DNA from: Streptomyces sp. BA2 | GTDB lineage: Bacteria; Actinomycetota; Actinomycetes; Streptomycetales; Streptomycetaceae | Direction: 5' to 3' | NCBI RefSeq assembly: GCF_009769735.1 | Contig: NZ_WSRO01000002.1 | Location: forward strand, 1 to 64,000 | Length of the DNA stretch: 64,000 nt | Position numbers and translations under genes: made by a program | Shown here: positions 4,968 to 26,182 of the stretch, in pieces | How the letters are laid out: the number at the start of each line of letters is the position of its first letter | Numbering within the stretch: the first letter of the stretch is position 1 | The notes under the pieces: generated by a model | The model's input: the letters and a program-made list of their open reading frames with translations, nothing else | The model's database searches: none | What the model was told of the DNA's origin: nothing

Positions 4968-5375
4968 GTGCCCGCCATCACCCGCACCGCCGTCCTGCTC
5001 ACCGCCGCCGTCGCCCTGGCCATCCCGGCCGCCACCGCGCACGCCACACCCGCTGGCAGCCCCGATACGGCACCACGAGTCGGTGAAACCGTCACGAAGC
5101 CGCTCATGGCCGCGCTCAAGGCCCTGCCCGTGAGGGAGGAGGACCGCACCGGCTACCAGCGGACCTCGTTCAAGCACTGGGTGGATGCCGACAAGGAAGG
5201 CTGCAGCACGCGCGCCGAGGTCCTCAAGGCCGAAGCGCTCACCGCCCCAAAGCAGAGCGCCAAGTGCAAGCTGAGCGGAGGCCGCTGGTTCTCGGAGTAT
5301 GACGACCGGTACGTCGAAGGCCCCTCCGGGCTCGACATCGACCACCGGGTTCCGCTTGCGGAATCCTGGGACTCC
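4968..5375 (+). pseudogene. Secreted HNH nuclease, 5' half (split by mobile element)
   Basis: The first 136 codons of a secreted HNH-family endonuclease (GmrSD C-terminal/DUF1524 type). Residues 1-26 are a Sec signal peptide (MPAITRTAVLLTAAVALAIP, cleavage near AHA). The conserved region GYQRTSFKHW, then GRWFSEYD, leads to the catalytic motif LDIDHRVPLAESWDS. Intact relatives are about 210-230 residues; here the frame runs two codons into inserted DNA and stops at 5379-5381. The missing C-terminal half is at 10546-10830 in the same orientation, and the joined sequence DSGAKQWSTAERQ is what the family predicts. A product truncated just after DH would lack the last HNH-fold residues. Confidence 0.85.
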
Positions 5376-5387
5376 AAGTAGGCGGAG
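5372..5387. other. Left junction site of mobile element (attL-like)
   Basis: At the left edge of the insertion CTCC (5372-5375, host gene) and GGAG (5384-5387, element) flank eight bases. The right edge has the same CTCC-N8-GGAG layout. Short inverted arms around a central spacer are what a tyrosine recombinase would bind, but this role is inferred. Confidence 0.5.
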
Positions 5388-5549
5388 TTGCTTCTCCTGC
5401 ATCGACATCGCACTAAGGACGTCGCGTCCATGACCTGGTCAAAGTCGGCGGGCGCGTAGCTCGTTCAGGCGAAGTCGAGGCATCTGGCCTCGGAGGTTCC
5501 AGCACCAACGCCACGATGATGCATCGAGCGCAACATCGTGGGAGTGGCC

Positions 5550-6677
5550 GTGAGAGCTGTTGATGTGCCGGGCACGTTCCGGCTGGTCGTCCCGGGAAAC
5601 GTGCAAGCTCTGGACCCGGCACCGGCGATGTTCGATGCGATGCTGCAGGGGTGGGAGCAACAGCAGCGGGCGCGGCTGCTGGCACGTAAGACGATCGAGG
5701 ACCGGCTGAGCCTGGTGCGGCGGTTCGCGCTGTTCGCGGCGACGTATCCGTGGGAGTGGACGCCTGAGGATGTGGAGGCGTACTTCTCGCATCGGCTGTC
5801 AGGTCCGGCTCCGCTGGCCCACTCCACAGTCCGCGGCCAGCAGGGTGATCTGCAGATGTTCTGCGCCTTCATCACCGATGGCCGCTACGGCTGGGCGTCT
5901 GCCTGCGAGGAGGCCTTCGGCCAGTTCCCAGTGCAGGTATGCCATGACTGGAACACTGCCGATCACGTCGCTGAGTTCGAGGGGAGTCCCGAGCGCCGGG
6001 CCTTGACCTATGACGAGCTGCAGGCTCTCTTCGACGCCGCCGACGACCGGGTCGAACAGGCCAGGAAACGCCGCCGCAAGGGCGTGCTGGCGGCCTGGCG
6101 CGACGCGGTCATGATCAAGCAGGTGTATGCGTATGGAACCCGGCGCCGCGAGACATCCAAGCTGGACCTGCCAGACCTGCGACGCAATCCCAGAGCCAAG
6201 TCCTACGGCCGGTTCGGTGCACTGGAGGTCCGGTTCGGCAAGGCGTCACGGGGCAGTCCGCCGAAGCGGCGGACGGTGCTGACGGTCCCGGAGGTCGACT
6301 GGGTCGTCCCGGTCCTCGAGGAGTGGGTGGACGTGGTTCGCTCCGGCTTCTCGCCGGGCCGGCATCCGGCACTGTGGGTCTCCGAACGCCGCGGCCGGCT
6401 CGGGGTGCGGCGCCTGGACGAGGTCTTCACGCTCATCCGGGAACATGCCGGGCTGCCGCCGGAACTGGAACTGCACTGCCTGCGGCACACGTACATCACG
6501 CACTTGATCGAGTTCGGGTATCCGGAACGGTTCGTCCAGGAGCAGGTCGGTCACGCCTATGCCTCTACAACGGCGTTGTACACGTGGGTGTCGGACGAGT
6601 ACCGCAACCGTCTGATGGAGGCGTCGTTGCGGCGACGGATGGAGCGAGCGGGTGGAAAGGAGTTGAGGTCGCGGTGA
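5550..6677 (+). CDS. Tyrosine recombinase (TnpA-like)
   Basis: A phage-integrase-family recombinase of 375 residues. An N-terminal SAM-like core-binding domain (about 25-140) precedes the catalytic domain (about 150-360). Visible catalytic residues are the first Arg in YGTRRRE, a Lys near FGKAS, the H-x-x-R box in HCLRHTYITH, the His in VGHAYAST and the nucleophilic Tyr in TALYTWVS. It would cut and rejoin element ends with the target as a DNA-protein intermediate. Start chosen at GTG 5550 with GGAG five bases upstream; GTG 5538 is also in frame but lacks such a site. The stop overlaps the next ATG (TGATG), so translation is coupled. Confidence 0.9.
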   Translation: MRAVDVPGTFRLVVPGNVQALDPAPAMFDAMLQGWEQQQRARLLARKTIEDRLSLVRRFALFAATYPWEWTPEDVEAYFSHRLSGPAPLAHSTVRGQQGDLQMFCAFITDGRYGWASACEEAFGQFPVQVCHDWNTADHVAEFEGSPERRALTYDELQALFDAADDRVEQARKRRRKGVLAAWRDAVMIKQVYAYGTRRRETSKLDLPDLRRNPRAKSYGRFGALEVRFGKASRGSPPKRRTVLTVPEVDWVVPVLEEWVDVVRSGFSPGRHPALWVSERRGRLGVRRLDEVFTLIREHAGLPPELELHCLRHTYITHLIEFGYPERFVQEQVGHAYASTTALYTWVSDEYRNRLMEASLRRRMERAGGKELRSR

Positions 6678-7009
6678 TGAAGCGGATGGGATTTGACTGG
6701 AATCTGCGTCGGCTGATGGCCGATCACGACATGTATCAGACCACGGACCTGGTGCCGCTGTTGGCCGAGTACGGGGTGCACCTGTCGCGGGAGCAGGTGT
6801 TCCGTCTGGTCACTCAGCCCCCGCAGCGCCTGTCGATGGAGACGCTGGCTGCCCTGTGCGGGATTCTGGGCTGCTCGCCGGCGGATCTGATCACGGTGCG
6901 GGAGGTCCGCAGGCAGGTCGCGAAGCCGACGGCTTCGGGTGAGGTCGATGGGCCGGCCGTGGTCCCGCCGGCCCGGAAGGTGCGGGTTCGTCGCCCTGAG
7001 GACGTGTGA
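6677..7009 (+). CDS. Small HTH (XRE-type) protein of the element
   Basis: A 110-residue protein with a Cro/CI-type helix-turn-helix at about 12-75 (LAEYGVHLSREQVFRLV, then LAALCGILGCSPADLI). The C-terminal 35 residues are basic and probably flexible (PPARKVRVRRPEDV). Placed between two recombinase-like genes and overlapping both, it is more likely a DNA-binding partner of recombination, or a repressor of the operon, than a global regulator. Tn554 encodes a small TnpC of similar size, but I cannot claim homology. Confidence 0.8.
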   Translation: MKRMGFDWNLRRLMADHDMYQTTDLVPLLAEYGVHLSREQVFRLVTQPPQRLSMETLAALCGILGCSPADLITVREVRRQVAKPTASGEVDGPAVVPPARKVRVRRPEDV

Positions 7010-8979
7010 GCGGCCAACCGCCACCGGCCTGGGAGGAACTGGCCGATCGGATCACCGCCTTCCTTCCCGGCCTGTCCGCCCAGCACGCGGAGCGGATCGT
7101 TGCCGAGCTGACCCCCTCTGCCCGTGGCAGGATCCGCGCGCATCTGACCCGACATCCGGACGCCCTGGTCAGCGGCGCGTCCGACGCGCCGCGTTCGGTG
7201 CAGGCACTGATCACCGTCCTCTTGAAGGCCGGGCTTGCCGGGGTGAGGCAGCCGGCCTGCCTGCGCTGCAGACGCGTGCGCATGCTGCGGCGGGCCGTCC
7301 CCGGCGGGCGGGTCTGCCGCGGATGTGAAGGCATCCTCGCCAAGCAGGACAATGTCGGACCATGCGCCGTATGCGGCGAGTCCCGCCCCCGGCCCTGCCA
7401 CCAGACGTGCGAGCGCTGCCGACGCGCCCAGTTGGCGGTCGGCAGGTCGTGTTCGGCCTGCGGCAGGCCAGCGGCCACCGACCCGTGCAGCAGCTGCCGA
7501 CCGCGTCCGCTGGAACGGTGCGCACTGTGCACCACACACGCACCGGTCTGTGCGCGCTGGCCGCTCGGGGCGGTGTGCCTGCCGTGCTACCGCCAGTCGC
7601 GCACCCACCCCGGCACGTGCCCGAGCTGCGACAGGCAGCGCGTTCTGATCGCCCGCCAAGACGGCCGCCGGGTCTGCGGTCCCTGCGCCGGCCACACCGA
7701 CCGCTACGCCTGTCCCCGGTGTGCGAACCCGCGCTCCTACATGGTCCGCGGGCTGTGCGACCGGTGCACCCTCCACGACGACCTCGCGGCACTCTTCGAA
7801 ACGGCACCCGCCCAACCGGATGGCCAGTACGCACGCATGCACGCCGCTCTGACCGGCTGCGAACAGCCGCGCACCGCGCTCAACTGGATTCGCAACTCGC
7901 ACTCTGCCCGCCTCCTGGCCGATCTCATCGCCACCGGACGCCCACTGACTCACGAGGATCTGGACGCCGCCGCTGGCTCCTGCGGCCGCGGCGGCGCTCA
8001 GAGCGTCGACTACCTCCGAAGCGTCCTGGTCAGCTATCAGGCCCTGCCTGAACGCACCGAGCTGCCCGCCCGTATCGAACGCCACCTGGCGCAGGTCACC
8101 GACCGCCACCCCGAGCACGCCCTGCTGCTGCGTTCCTACGTCCGCTGGTCGCTCCTGCCCCGCGCGCGCCGCGCTGACCAGCGGTCGACAGGCTCCAAGC
8201 ACCGGATCCGCTGGGCCTACACCCGGATCAACCTCGCAGCCGCCTTCCTGACCGCCATGGCCAAGCGCGGACTCACCCTCCACGACGTCACCCAGGGCGA
8301 TGTCGACTGGTGGCTCGCAGGGAACTCCAGCACCCGCTTCGAGGTCCGTGACTTTGTCGTCTGGTCCCACCGCCGCGGACACAGCCGCCTTCTTTACGTC
8401 CCGCACCGCGGCAAGGCTGACCCCGTTGGTCTCAACGAGGACTCCCATTGGGAAATCCTCCAGCAGTGCCTGACCGACAACGCTCTGCCCCTCGAAGTGC
8501 GCGTCGCTGGTGCCATCTTGAACCTCTTCGGGCAGCACCTCACGCGCATCGCCGCGCTGCCCACCGACGCCCTGTCTACGATGGACGGCCACCCTGTCCT
8601 CGTTCTTGATCGCACCCCTATCCGCCTCCCCGCCCCGCTCGCGGTCCTCCTCACGGAACTGATCCGTCGGCCGGTGGCTGGTTGGGCCGCGAACTCGACC
8701 CGCCGGTGGCTCTTCCCTGGGCCTCGGCCCGGCGAGCACATCTCCGCCAGCGTCCTCGCGCGCCGCCTCACGGCTCGCCAGATCCCGGTCCGCCAGACCC
8801 GCACGACCGCACTGATCGAACTCGACCAGGACCTGCCGCCCGCCGTCCTCGCACCCATGCTCGGCCTGCATGTCATCACCGCCCAGCAATGGCGCCACCG
8901 CGCCGCCAACGACTGGACCGCCCATCTCGAAGCCCGGCTGACAGATCCGCATGCTGGCAAGATGAGCGCCCATGAATGA
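7006..8979 (+). CDS. Zinc-knuckle protein with degenerate tyrosine-recombinase domain (TnpB-like)
   Basis: A 657-residue protein starting at GTG 7006, overlapping the previous stop by four bases. Residues about 80-270 hold about a dozen CxxC pairs (CRGCEG, CAVCGE, CSACGRP, CALCTTH, CPSCDRQ, CPRCANP), predicting a row of zinc ribbons for nucleic-acid binding. The C-terminal part has the layout of a phage-integrase domain: LTRIAAL at the first Arg box and RQTRTTALIEL then LGLHVITAQQW at the last boxes. Trp stands where the nucleophilic Tyr is expected and the H-x-x-R box is altered, so it may be a structural partner of the active recombinase. Size resembles Tn554 TnpB (about 630 residues). Confidence 0.82.
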   Translation: MSGQPPPAWEELADRITAFLPGLSAQHAERIVAELTPSARGRIRAHLTRHPDALVSGASDAPRSVQALITVLLKAGLAGVRQPACLRCRRVRMLRRAVPGGRVCRGCEGILAKQDNVGPCAVCGESRPRPCHQTCERCRRAQLAVGRSCSACGRPAATDPCSSCRPRPLERCALCTTHAPVCARWPLGAVCLPCYRQSRTHPGTCPSCDRQRVLIARQDGRRVCGPCAGHTDRYACPRCANPRSYMVRGLCDRCTLHDDLAALFETAPAQPDGQYARMHAALTGCEQPRTALNWIRNSHSARLLADLIATGRPLTHEDLDAAAGSCGRGGAQSVDYLRSVLVSYQALPERTELPARIERHLAQVTDRHPEHALLLRSYVRWSLLPRARRADQRSTGSKHRIRWAYTRINLAAAFLTAMAKRGLTLHDVTQGDVDWWLAGNSSTRFEVRDFVVWSHRRGHSRLLYVPHRGKADPVGLNEDSHWEILQQCLTDNALPLEVRVAGAILNLFGQHLTRIAALPTDALSTMDGHPVLVLDRTPIRLPAPLAVLLTELIRRPVAGWAANSTRRWLFPGPRPGEHISASVLARRLTARQIPVRQTRTTALIELDQDLPPAVLAPMLGLHVITAQQWRHRAANDWTAHLEARLTDPHAGKMSAHE

Positions 8980-9427
8980 TCAAGAAGCCGTTGAAACACA
9001 CGCTCTCCGTGTGGTCACCGAGCTCTATCCCCATGACCTGGGCGCCATACTCGGAGGCTCCGCCGCTCAGGGGCGGGCCACCGCGACCAGCGATCTGGAT
9101 GTGGCCGTGCTCCTTCCCGACTCGGACATCAGTCGGCGGGAAGTGATCCGTCACCAGGGCCGCATCGTCGAGCTGTTCCTCAACACCCTGGGGGACATAC
9201 CGGAGTTCTTCGCCTGGGACCGAGCCCGGCGCCGCGGGACCGTCCTGTTCGTCTACGACCAGGGTCTGCCCCTGGCAGACCCGGTCCTGGGCAAAGCACT
9301 GCTGGATGGGCACCAGGCCGTAGCCGAACACGCCGTCCCCCGACTGTTGACCACTGCGGTGAATCAGGTGCTCGACCTGCTGGGCGGACCACTGCTTGAG
9401 GGTTTCTCCCACCCCTGGCGAGCCTGA
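8972..9427 (+). CDS. Nucleotidyltransferase-domain protein (short)
   Basis: A 151-residue protein with a minimal nucleotidyltransferase fold: GGSAAQGRATATSDLD at about 28-43 is the GSxxxG...SDxD signature, followed by strands VAVLLPDS and RIVELFL. These enzymes move an NMP to a small molecule or protein; DNA polymerase beta-like antitoxins (MNT) and aminoglycoside adenylyltransferases belong here. The protein lacks the usual C-terminal helical domain, and its last 20 codons overlap the 3' end of the convergent GNAT gene, so it may be truncated. Its ATG overlaps the stop of the recombinase-like gene by eight bases, which ties it to the element's operon. Confidence 0.7.
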   Translation: MNDQEAVETHALRVVTELYPHDLGAILGGSAAQGRATATSDLDVAVLLPDSDISRREVIRHQGRIVELFLNTLGDIPEFFAWDRARRRGTVLFVYDQGLPLADPVLGKALLDGHQAVAEHAVPRLLTTAVNQVLDLLGGPLLEGFSHPWRA

Positions 9428-10305
9428 GTTGCTCCTGATGCGCCCCAGGAGAAGTCGTATCCGGCCCAGTCCGTAACCGGGACATATCCGATTCGCTGGT
9501 AGAGGGCGTTGCTGGCACGGTTGGCAGGGTCCGCGAACAGCACGACGTCCGTCGCTCCTGCGGCCAGCGCGGCTCGGCTCACCTCGACCGTCACGGCACC
9601 CGCGTAGCCGCACCCCCGAAGGTGCGCCGGGGTGTACACCGGGTCCACTCGGACCATGCCTGCAACTATCACCGTCGTGGCGGCCATGGAGACGGGTGTA
9701 CCGTCCGGTGTCTGCCAGAACGTGAAGTGCCTGTCCGCGAAGCGCGAGCAGGCCCAGGAGTCGATGTCCACAGCGGGGATCTCTCCGACTGTTTCGACGA
9801 ACTCAGCTACCCAGCAGACGAGTTGCTCATGGTCCTGATCGCCCACAGCGCGACTGCGGCCCTTGGGAAGCGGCTCAGGCGGGGTGATCGTGCCGAGACG
9901 GTAGAGACGGTTCCGTTGGCTGAGTGTCGGTACCGCGCCTGTGCGTCGCTGCCATGCCTCGGCGAAAGCGGTAGCGGTGCAGTGGTCCGCGCTGACACCG
10001 GGGACGGGGCGGCCGAGGTCAGCCAGGCGAGCGGCGAGCAGGTCGGCCTGCTCGCCCGTGGTGGATGTGAGACTCAGGGGACCGGACGGAGTGCGCTGGT
10101 AGAAGGTGGCACAGATCTCGCCCCCGAGCTCCAACTGGCCGAATACAGAGGCACCGGCGCCGCGCTCAGCCTCCCTGTCCGTTAGCAGCTTCTCCGTCAC
10201 CGTCAGGGGCATGGTGTGCAGGGCAGGTCGGGAGCGCAGGAAACCTCCAGATCGGGCGAGGAAGTCGTCGACGCCTTCGGTGAGGTGCCAGTCATCGGGG
10301 CGCAT
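9364..10305 (-). CDS. GNAT family N-acetyltransferase
   Basis: A 313-residue protein. The C-terminal half (about 150-290) is a GNAT acetyltransferase: VRVDPVYTPAHLRGCGYAG is the acetyl-CoA pyrophosphate loop, and NRASNALYQRIGYVPV is the last strand-helix-strand. The N-terminal half resembles the degenerate GNAT-like lobe of two-lobed actinobacterial members. Natural relatives end near YDF; the final 25 residues (from WGASGATQ) look like read-through, so the 3' end has probably been joined to new DNA where it converges with the nucleotidyltransferase gene. The substrate cannot be told from sequence. Confidence 0.8.
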   Translation of the reverse strand: MRPDDWHLTEGVDDFLARSGGFLRSRPALHTMPLTVTEKLLTDREAERGAGASVFGQLELGGEICATFYQRTPSGPLSLTSTTGEQADLLAARLADLGRPVPGVSADHCTATAFAEAWQRRTGAVPTLSQRNRLYRLGTITPPEPLPKGRSRAVGDQDHEQLVCWVAEFVETVGEIPAVDIDSWACSRFADRHFTFWQTPDGTPVSMAATTVIVAGMVRVDPVYTPAHLRGCGYAGAVTVEVSRAALAAGATDVVLFADPANRASNALYQRIGYVPVTDWAGYDFSWGASGATQARQGWEKPSSSGPPSRSST

Positions 10306-10533
10306 AGTTCATGGTCTCTGACGTACTCGACGCTGGGGAGCACTTGCCCGGACCAGATCGGCACCTGCCGAGGGTGATCGGCATTAGATCCGAGCCAGAG
10401 CCAGTGCCCTTCGACGTGGGCAGAGGTCCCGCTGCCCACCGCAGCATCAAGTAGTAGGCCCTCGATGGCCCCACCGTGGGTCGCCCGGCCTGAGAGACAG
10501 ACACTCCGGAATATCGCGCATGTGGAATGACGC

Positions 10534-10549
10534 CTCCCGCCAGTCGGAG
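10534..10549. other. Right junction site of mobile element (attR-like)
   Basis: CTCC (10534-10537, element) and GGAG (10546-10549, host gene) flank the spacer CGCCAGTC, matching the left junction in layout but not in spacer sequence. Joining the two element ends would give CTCCCGCC...GGCGGAG, a near-palindrome. Confidence 0.5.
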
Positions 10550-10830
10550 CTAAACAATGGAGCACGGCCGAGCGCCAGGCCTATGCCAACGACCTCGGCG
10601 ACGACCGGGCACTGATCGCCGTCACGGCAAAGTCCAACCGCAGCAAGTCCGACCAGGACCCCTCCACCTGGATGCCGCCGGCCGAAGGCAACCGGTGCGA
10701 CTACGTCAGCCAGTGGGTCGCTATCAAGACCCGCTGGAAGCTCGCCATTGACCCCAGCGAAGAAGCCGCCCTCGCCGAGAACGCCACCCGCTGCCCCAAC
10801 ATGCCCATCACGGTGCAACTCGCACGGTAG
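10546..10830 (+). pseudogene. Secreted HNH nuclease, 3' half
   Basis: In frame from 10546 the sequence reads GAKQWSTAERQAYANDLGD, then ALIAVTAKSNRSKSDQDP, STWMPP, and YVSQWVAIKTRWKLAID, ending with a stop at 10828-10830. This is the C-terminal half of the HNH nuclease begun at 4968, including the N-x-x-K/D part of the fold (NRSKSDQDP) that completes the metal site. It has no start codon or ribosome-binding site of its own. Rejoining the halves gives 230 codons, the normal family length. Confidence 0.85.
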
Positions 10831-24862: not shown

Positions 24863-26182
24863 TCAGGCCGTGAGGGCATAACTGCCCTGGTCACAGACTG
24901 GGTAGAGGCGTTGATGCTCCCGGGCGAGATGATGCTTCCAGTAGGCGTCGAGGTCGCCGTTGGCTGCGACAGCACGGAGCTTGAGGACGGCTTCGGCGCC
25001 GTCGAGACCCCAGCGGGCCCCGCTGATATCGAGGCGGTCGGCGACGAGGTGGCGTGCGGCTCCTTCGATGATCCCGGTGGCGATGGGCCAGCCGGCCTTG
25101 AGGGCCTGGTCGTAGTGGAGGAACTCGCTGTTCGTACGCAGGTAGCGGACGCACACGTCGACGCCGCGGTGTTGCTCACCGTTCAGATCGGCGTGGTCGG
25201 CCTGGTCCTGGATGGCGTCGGCGACCTCGGCGGCATGACCTGCGAGAACAGCGAGGGCGTGGGTGGCAACCCAGCTCTCGGTGGTCTTGTCGCCCGTGCG
25301 GTGGAAGCACCAGGCCGCCGCCCAGATCTTCTCCAGGACGTGGATGATGTCGATGACGATGCGGACGTCGACATGGTGCAGGCGGGCTTCGGCCTGGACC
25401 AGCTCGAGTTGGTGGCGGGCGCCGTCGACCAGGACCACCCACCTGCGACGATGATGGGGGTCGCGGGCTTCGGCGTGATCGAAGACCTGCCTGACGACAT
25501 GCTCCGCATCGTGACGGACCGAACCGCACAGCCACTTGCCCCGGGCGATGGGGCCCGGCCGCGGGGTGTAGCCGGCGGCCCGTCCGCCGGGCGGGGTGAT
25601 CACGTCGTGCGGTCGACGTGGTGCGGGGTCGGCGTCGTAGACCGCGCCGAGCGTGGCCATGCGTTTGCGGGCACTCTTCTCCCCGATGGCCAGCCGGGTG
25701 CGGAAGGTGTTCTCCCGGCGGGCAGCGGCCTGCCGGGTAGCCTCCCGCAAAGCCTCCGGCCTCATCACGATCCCCTTGCCGTCCACCGACAGCACCAACA
25801 CCGTGGAGACGGTGCATGGTTGAACGATCCGCGCATCGTAGAAGGCATCGATGTCCTGGGCGGCCTCGACGAGCAGGTGGGCGAGCTGGCGCTTGCCGAG
25901 GACCGGGCCGCACCGGCGGCAGATCGTCTCCGCGGCGGCGTCGTAAGACATCCGGGTCGCGGCCTGGACCGCGAGGCGGGCGAGGCCGTGCGAGTGCCGC
26001 CCTCTGGGCAGCGACAGGTCCTCGTCGGCCGGGTGCACGTTGGCCGCCTCCAGGCGCCGCCACGCGCAGCGGGACACCCTGACCGTTCCGAACACCGTGG
26101 CCAGCAGCCGCCCATGACCGGTCTCCAGCCGCGAGCGGAGCAGCCCGTCGGCGCCGACTATGCACGGCCGTCGCCTCGCCAC
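24863..26182 (-). CDS. ISKra4-family transposase, N-terminally shortened
   Basis: A 439-residue protein covering most of an ISKra4 transposase: VFGTVRVSRCAWRRLEAANV, HPADEDLSLPRGRHSHGLAR, the DDE region VLVLSVDGKGIVMRPEALRE, WVVLVDGARHQLELVQAE, then IIHVLEKIWAAAWCFHRTGD and GIIEGAARHLVADRLDISGA with the last acidic residue. The catalytic core looks whole. The usual first 60-70 residues (a helical region with DLLRQLFQDHLDLR) are missing, and the frame upstream of GTG 26182 is open but has no start. It is probably a truncated copy; no terminal repeats were identified. Confidence 0.8.
   Translation of the reverse strand: MARRRPCIVGADGLLRSRLETGHGRLLATVFGTVRVSRCAWRRLEAANVHPADEDLSLPRGRHSHGLARLAVQAATRMSYDAAAETICRRCGPVLGKRQLAHLLVEAAQDIDAFYDARIVQPCTVSTVLVLSVDGKGIVMRPEALREATRQAAARRENTFRTRLAIGEKSARKRMATLGAVYDADPAPRRPHDVITPPGGRAAGYTPRPGPIARGKWLCGSVRHDAEHVVRQVFDHAEARDPHHRRRWVVLVDGARHQLELVQAEARLHHVDVRIVIDIIHVLEKIWAAAWCFHRTGDKTTESWVATHALAVLAGHAAEVADAIQDQADHADLNGEQHRGVDVCVRYLRTNSEFLHYDQALKAGWPIATGIIEGAARHLVADRLDISGARWGLDGAEAVLKLRAVAANGDLDAYWKHHLAREHQRLYPVCDQGSYALTA

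Follow-up and report, generated by a model that had tools for sequence, protein, structure and literature searches.

A probable site-specific transposon family of Streptomyces targeting a coding motif of secreted HNH nuclease genes

What has been inserted into a secreted HNH nuclease gene of Streptomyces sp. BA2, and did it arrive there by chance? The question is raised by the first 64,000 nucleotides of contig NZ_WSRO01000002.1 (assembly GCF_009769735.1; hereafter the window), the start of a 9.44-Mb contig in a 10.04-Mb genome, where an element carrying a tyrosine recombinase gene, a helix-turn-helix (HTH) protein gene and a gene for a long protein with a zinc array separates two halves of such a nuclease gene (Table 1). 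We compared this element with its relatives on plasmids and in genomes, taking one genome per species in the genome searches. These comparisons make it very probable that the element belongs to a site-specific Streptomyces transposon family, inserting at the Ser-Gly codon boundary of the motif DHxVPLAEAWDS-GA (the hyphen marks the insertion point) in secreted GmrSD_C/HNH genes. The target of the family would then be a coding motif conserved in a multicopy gene family.

Insertion point and ends of the element

By sequence comparison, the stretch 5376-10545 is an insertion that splits a GmrSD_C/HNH nuclease gene without target duplication. A sequence-only reading of the window had described these bases as separating two HNH nuclease halves and had suggested looking for intact relatives; such relatives exist (P0002 and P0003 of the protein database, 227 aa) and are continuous across the junction, confirming the split. 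P0002 matches with 92% identity across 97% of the left half; identical residues number 123 of 133 (P0002) and 118 of 133 (P0003) in the left half and 82 and 84 of 94, respectively, in the right half, or 87-92% per half. Comparison of the junction with these orthologues revealed no duplication flanking the insert, and Tn554 makes no target duplication either. The right half matches Pfam GmrSD_C, and the left half alone has no Pfam match. The open reading frame of the left half runs into the element and ends at 5381 as WDSK and a stop, the Lys codon and the stop codon both coming from AAGTAG, with which the element begins. The closest plasmid and HNH relatives of the window are from Streptomyces.

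The same codon is occupied in related copies. All six plasmid relatives fetched with their flanks (H1-H6) are inserted there in an HNH gene, and the right HNH half was located in each of them; the true right end of L008 lies 8.8 kb from its left end. A scan of genome contigs gave nine further loci (L040-L048), among which L041, L042, L043 and L044 have the insertion at the identical HNH codon and L046, L047 and L048 showed no left end. Another copy at the HNH codon, in genome G019, has its probable right end 19.7 kb away. Of 150 genomes from the genus, six, among them that of the window, contain the 15-mer of the left end, each a single time, and all six matches (the window, G019, G159, G139, G095 and G158, the last in a degenerate HNH gene) lie at this codon; G159 has the same coordinates and flank as L042 and was counted once. 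The reversed control pattern matched in three of the 150 genomes. Altogether, 15 of 17 distinct left ends lie at the codon PLAEAWDS-G of divergent HNH genes. An 18-mer of the right end, searched with at most one mismatch, gave 17 matches in 15 genomes, against none for its control, and 13 of the 17 continue into an HNH 3' half (one of them out of frame and one for only about 10 codons); since this 18-mer misses the window's own right end, which has two mismatches, the match count is a lower bound. HNH genes are multicopy in 46 of 61 genomes, with up to 11 matches.

The clean split of the HNH gene noted in the sequence-only reading is therefore real, but an incidental insertion is ruled out by the other copies at the same codon: the HNH motif itself appears to be the target site. 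A palindromic attB (GCCGAGGCC..GGCCTCGGC), present in some targets, was dropped because the palindrome is absent in the window. An in-frame TGA in HNH homologues was only apparent, being the gene's own stop in the six loci read.

The exact borders proposed earlier are likewise supported, as relatives have them in common; the left end was aligned in 14 copies. Related elements in unrelated contexts with different borders had been named beforehand as evidence against a distinct family; the contexts are indeed unrelated, but the borders are the same. The left end is nearly fixed and the right end is conserved except for its last few bases. The termini are imperfect inverted repeats, with GGCGG near both ends and inverted GGAATGAYGC repeats: an inner repeat, GCATCATTCCGC, lies about 25 bp inside the left end, and the right end has two GGAATA/GGAATGACGC repeats followed by CCCCGCCAG and TC or CT, with CCAACT and CCACTC as rarer termini. 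In 12 of the 14 copies, all but the window and L044, a palindrome, TTGCATCnnATGCAA, lies about 135-143 nt inside the left end. At the right end, the terminal bases do not depend on the local target: with recombinases 91% identical and the same Ser codon, L041 terminates in AGCT and L042 in AGTC. This is the pattern expected of bases acquired elsewhere, as in Tn554-type insertion, an origin that we regard as unproven.

Table 1. Positions of the element, its genes and ends, and the interrupted target gene in the window
Feature	Position	Strand	Evidence or remark
Target gene 5' half, through ..PLAESWDS	4968..5375	+	Secreted HNH, GmrSD_C-type nuclease
Complete element	5376..10545	+	5,170 bp; same borders in relatives; intact orthologues without the element
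Left-end motif AAGTAGGCGGAGTTG	5376..5390	+	Aligned in 14 copies; 150-genome pattern search
Inner left repeat (consensus GCATCATTCCGC, degenerate in window)	5399..5411	+	Inverted relative to right-end repeats; left-end alignment
Operator-like palindrome TTGCATC-nn-ATGCAA (degenerate in window)	5515..5537	.	Directly 5' of tnpA
tnpA, tyrosine recombinase, 379 aa	5538..6677	+	PF00589, E 3.5e-17
Cro/C1-type HTH (HTH_26) protein, 110 aa	6677..7009	+	PF13443, E 3e-14
Long protein, 657 aa	7006..8979	+	Helical N-terminus, 12 CxxC motifs, tyrosine-recombinase fold
Passenger nucleotidyltransferase-domain protein, 151 aa	8972..9427	+	PF01909, E 1.2e-6
Passenger GNAT acetyltransferase, 313 aa	9364..10305	-	PF08445, E 7.3e-5
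Right-end repeat 1 (GGAATATCGC)	10508..10517	+	Right-end alignment
Right-end repeat 2 (GGAATGACGC) and terminus ..CCCGCCAGTC	10524..10545	+	
Target gene 3' half, starting GAKQWSTAERQAYAND..	10546..10830	+	

Core proteins and known systems

The core of the element consists of three overlapping genes, for the recombinase (TnpA), the HTH protein and the long protein. TnpA looks active, judging from an alignment of seven copies in which R202, K235, H313, R316, H339 and Y348 are invariant; by motif, we take these residues to have the catalytic roles. The HTH protein has no match up to an E-value of 1 to DUF6262, which we take to be the TnpC-type family. In the long protein, for which no Pfam domain was found above the cut-off, the 12 CxxC motifs lie at residues 85-254 and the tyrosine-recombinase fold at 366-651 (structures were compared with VIA-align on Foldseek's chains), and Trp629 stands at the position of the catalytic Tyr. 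Trp occupies this position in all 48 aligned sequences (41 of 75 matches, partial ones being excluded, plus the six plasmid copies and the window) and in 30 of 31 sequences of a separate alignment set, the remaining row being out of frame there; the column of the first catalytic Arg (Arg-I) is not conserved. Since Trp replaces the catalytic Tyr in 48 of 48 sequences, the long protein is probably catalytically dead.

The gene content given by the sequence-only reading (recombinase, HTH protein, zinc-knuckle protein, nucleotidyltransferase and GNAT) is as described, with Pfam matches for all but the zinc-knuckle protein. This protein is recombinase-like in the fold of the model, but probably not a second working recombinase, as the catalytic Tyr and a conserved Arg-I are lacking. 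Its view of the last two genes as passengers agrees with their distribution, as neither has a match in 14 related loci, and the Tn554-like behaviour it had proposed is supported by sequence-specific insertion without target duplication.

How does this core relate to known systems? TnpA and TnpB of Tn554 both carry the RHRY catalytic motif (PMC10214605). The Tn554 family, which includes Tn552-II/Tn553, shares with the element target-specific insertion without duplication, imperfect inverted termini, and one normal and one long protein of recombinase fold accompanied by a small protein, so that an ordinary Tn554-family transposon, with the long gene as TnpB and the HTH gene as a diverged TnpC, has to be considered. 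We hold this to be distinctly unlikely: none of the 48 aligned sequences of the long protein has the catalytic Tyr, the protein bears the array of 12 CxxC motifs, the gene order is recombinase-HTH-long, and the small protein is of HTH_26 type without a DUF6262 match, while in L062, a locus of the wider family described below, DUF6262 adjoins a large PF00589 recombinase. In addition, the long protein shows no relation to the presumed Famint41 protein of pREL1.

The latter protein presumably belongs to Famint36/41, a pair that has no TnpC and is one of the actinobacterial pairs of Tn554-related recombinases defined as a class in 2012 (Van Houdt, PMC3414803). Like the element, it has actinobacterial plasmids as hosts, and it combines a short and a long recombinase. 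We compared one carrier, pREL1, where the presumed pair (341 and 611 aa) was picked by size and order, and searched pRHL2 with the element's proteins only. The pREL1 pair consists of two PF00589 recombinases whose genes overlap, with nothing between them; its short protein is distantly related to TnpA (29% over 209 aa) and its long protein has no similarity to that of the element. Judged on pREL1, the element is thus outside this class of two adjacent active recombinases without a third gene. The claim of a previously unassigned element has to be narrowed accordingly: Tn554-related actinobacterial pairs have been known since 2012 (PMC3414803), but the presumed pREL1 pair is different.

SE (strand-biased circularizing) elements, made up of IntA, Tfp, IntB and Srap, have, like the element, a partner with recombinase fold that lacks catalytic residues, Tfp; they use few insertion sites and are reported only from Gammaproteobacteria (PMC10214605). 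They have two active recombinases and Srap, whereas the core described here has one active recombinase, and the minimal copies L041 and L042 consist of three genes rather than an intA-tfp-intB-srap core. GInts (ginABCD) share a left-end operon of recombinases and a small protein, variable cargo and site specificity with the element, but they have three recombinase-like proteins and GinD is reported to resemble TnpC (PMC5385486), whereas the small protein here is HTH_26; the gene content of the window and of L042 is not that of a ginABCD operon. Gamma-mobile-trio islands do not fit either, with GmtZ at 16 bits against a cut-off of 600 and GmtY not among the matches. The open-access literature consulted, most subscription papers being outside the search, yielded no account of a similar element aimed at HNH genes. 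The element would seem, from its genes and ends, to work like Tn554, GInts and SE elements, yet to miss a defining feature of each, in line with the distinct actinobacterial family that the sequence-only reading had proposed.

Repeated insertion and variable cargo

Did the element enter these genes repeatedly or only once? A tree of 43 HNH proteins, 10 of them from occupied genes, requires seven changes between the occupied and intact states, at least six of them forced by well-supported branches. Of the 15 occupied genes, 10 entered the HNH trees, together with 18 of the 120 homologues listed and 13 loci from genomes; the rows HNH_L078 (mostly empty), HNH_L064 (a duplicate of another row) and CARGO_L040 (a very long branch) were dropped. 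Since each state change could be a gain or a loss, and two occupied rows have long branches, the tree does not fix the number of insertions. The window and L006 have recombinases 89% identical and target halves 58% identical; L006 and L043 have targets 83% identical and recombinases 79% identical. Element and target relatedness thus disagree, for which a single inherited insertion does not account, and the occupied HNH genes are most simply read as products of repeated insertion.

Several observations weigh against the interpretation developed so far. The left ends of L040 and of the damaged copy L045 lie in non-HNH sequence, and four of the 17 right-end matches are not in HNH genes. On the HNH tree, the occupied rows L007 and L042 have long branches and are unsure in placement, some state changes may be losses, and there is some clustering of the occupied rows (23 of 500 shuffles were as low). 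The fold of the long protein is assigned from an AlphaFold model, with XerD as a weak match (E 0.0039), and profile comparison of this protein with TnpA by hhalign gave nothing. The right-terminal bases, tried as a donor Ser codon, match none, leaving unproven a donor core such as Tn554 brings in at its right end, 6-7 bp long. Lastly, no circle or tandem junction was seen in 343 genomes, the viral contigs or 164 loci, an absence that does not speak decisively against a circular form. Element ends outside HNH genes were seen on the left in L040 and L045 and on the right in L139 (G120) and L143 (G081); we read them as secondary sites or rearranged copies.

The rival view of a single ancient insertion, inherited vertically and passed between HNH genes by homologous recombination, could draw on the multicopy nature of these genes, on the possible losses in the tree and on L009, L010 and L011, which share both a target subfamily and an element clade. 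It is nonetheless highly improbable. Occupied genes are scattered among intact ones with six changes forced, the relatedness of elements is discordant with that of targets, and both halves of the window gene match P0002 and P0003 rather than the halves around the nearest elements; moreover, recombination would have to stop exactly at both ends, in genes that are often no more than 50-60% identical.

Copies differ in what they carry. L041 and L042 have the three core genes only, in 3,616 and 3,618 bp, with about 50 bp left after the long-protein match; other copies have different passengers and reach sizes of up to probably 19.7 kb. An intact HNH gene lies just downstream of the core genes in four copies (L008, L009, L040 and G019), and a frameshifted one was found in G024; in L040 (ends not in HNH or not seen) and G024 (core genes off the contig) this cargo is placed inside the element by gene order. 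The three placeable cargo genes (L008, L009 and G019) belong to a different subfamily from the gene broken by their own element: the L009 cargo groups with the G019 target, and the L008 and G019 cargoes group with the L009-L011 targets. A cargo gene resembling the target gene is carried by Tn552-II, for which a rescue role was proposed (PMC12486829); by analogy, the intact HNH genes of the four copies may rescue the function of the broken gene.

The family also includes L132 (G139:C9), a copy of 462 bp with an internal deletion and both ends intact, resembling a miniature inverted-repeat transposable element, inside an HNH gene of a genome (G139) with no long-protein match. Two relics lie elsewhere in the genome of the window. 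L050 (G000:C2:120758-121056) retains a 3' piece of the long gene with 91% identity over 64 aa; in L097 (G000:C2:9248036), about 193 kb from the opposite contig end, the right end of an element leads into the 3' half of an HNH gene.

Transposition model, wider family and significance

We infer a mechanism of mobility in which TnpA would perform all strand cleavage, via Y348, and the long zinc-array protein would be its dead tyrosine-recombinase partner, binding the ends or the target and fixing specificity or strand order. The HTH protein may repress the operon by binding at the palindrome upstream of tnpA, serve as an accessory factor, or both. Transposition would proceed through a circular intermediate as in Tn554, SE elements and GInts, with a core mismatch tolerated, so that the left junction would retain the target Ser codon and the right end would bring its own terminal bases (GTC, GCT or rarer forms). 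The HNH family, being multicopy and apparently dispensable, suits such an element as a target. Alternatively, the long protein could be a repressor or immunity protein without a part in transposition, like the phage repressors MrpR, YopR and SroF, which have a dead tyrosine-recombinase fold. We consider this unlikely, given that even L041 and L042, the two minimal elements, retain the long gene next to tnpA and the HTH gene; the repressors named are not known to have a zinc array, which also counts against it.

In a wider family, the order recombinase-HTH-long is found on many actinobacterial plasmids. The long protein matches 251 plasmid records; in 91 the match spans 80% of its length or more, and in 247 of the 251 the identity at the best place is below 60%. 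A second tyrosine recombinase lies upstream in the wider-family operons L061, L062, L109, L110 and L112. Directly downstream in L062 are genes for a 743-aa PF00589 recombinase and a DUF6262 protein, perhaps a nested Tn554-like element. Rhodococcus copies have a common left end and no obvious shared target. L059 and L113, related plasmid copies, lie directly downstream of a gene annotated PhlD, and pREL1 also carries a relic of the wider family with an HTH gene. A phage origin was set aside, with no relative among viral contigs and PHROGs matches, among five proteins, only for the integrase; so was a defence island, the PADLOC matches to the nucleotidyltransferase being weak. The sole tRNA gene that ARAGORN predicts in the window is tRNA-Thr(ggt) at 25106-25202; its 97 bases are long for a tRNA-Thr.

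A fuller picture, which we put forward tentatively and with more doubt than confidence, is that of a separate transposon family with an active/dead recombinase pair, in which the zinc-array pseudo-recombinase would read the coding motif, transposition would be strand-biased and of copy type, and some members would carry an intact relative of the target as a replacement. In its compact form of 3.6 kb, with sharp borders, the element offers a model of target choice by multi-recombinase transposons, and enough is known of its ends and target to set up a plasmid assay in a laboratory strain. Whether a dead recombinase partner determines the choice of target and strand, which the papers cited here do not settle for Tn554, SE elements and GInts, becomes testable. 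For Streptomyces, a coding motif of a multicopy gene family, used as a target, would be a natural safe harbour.

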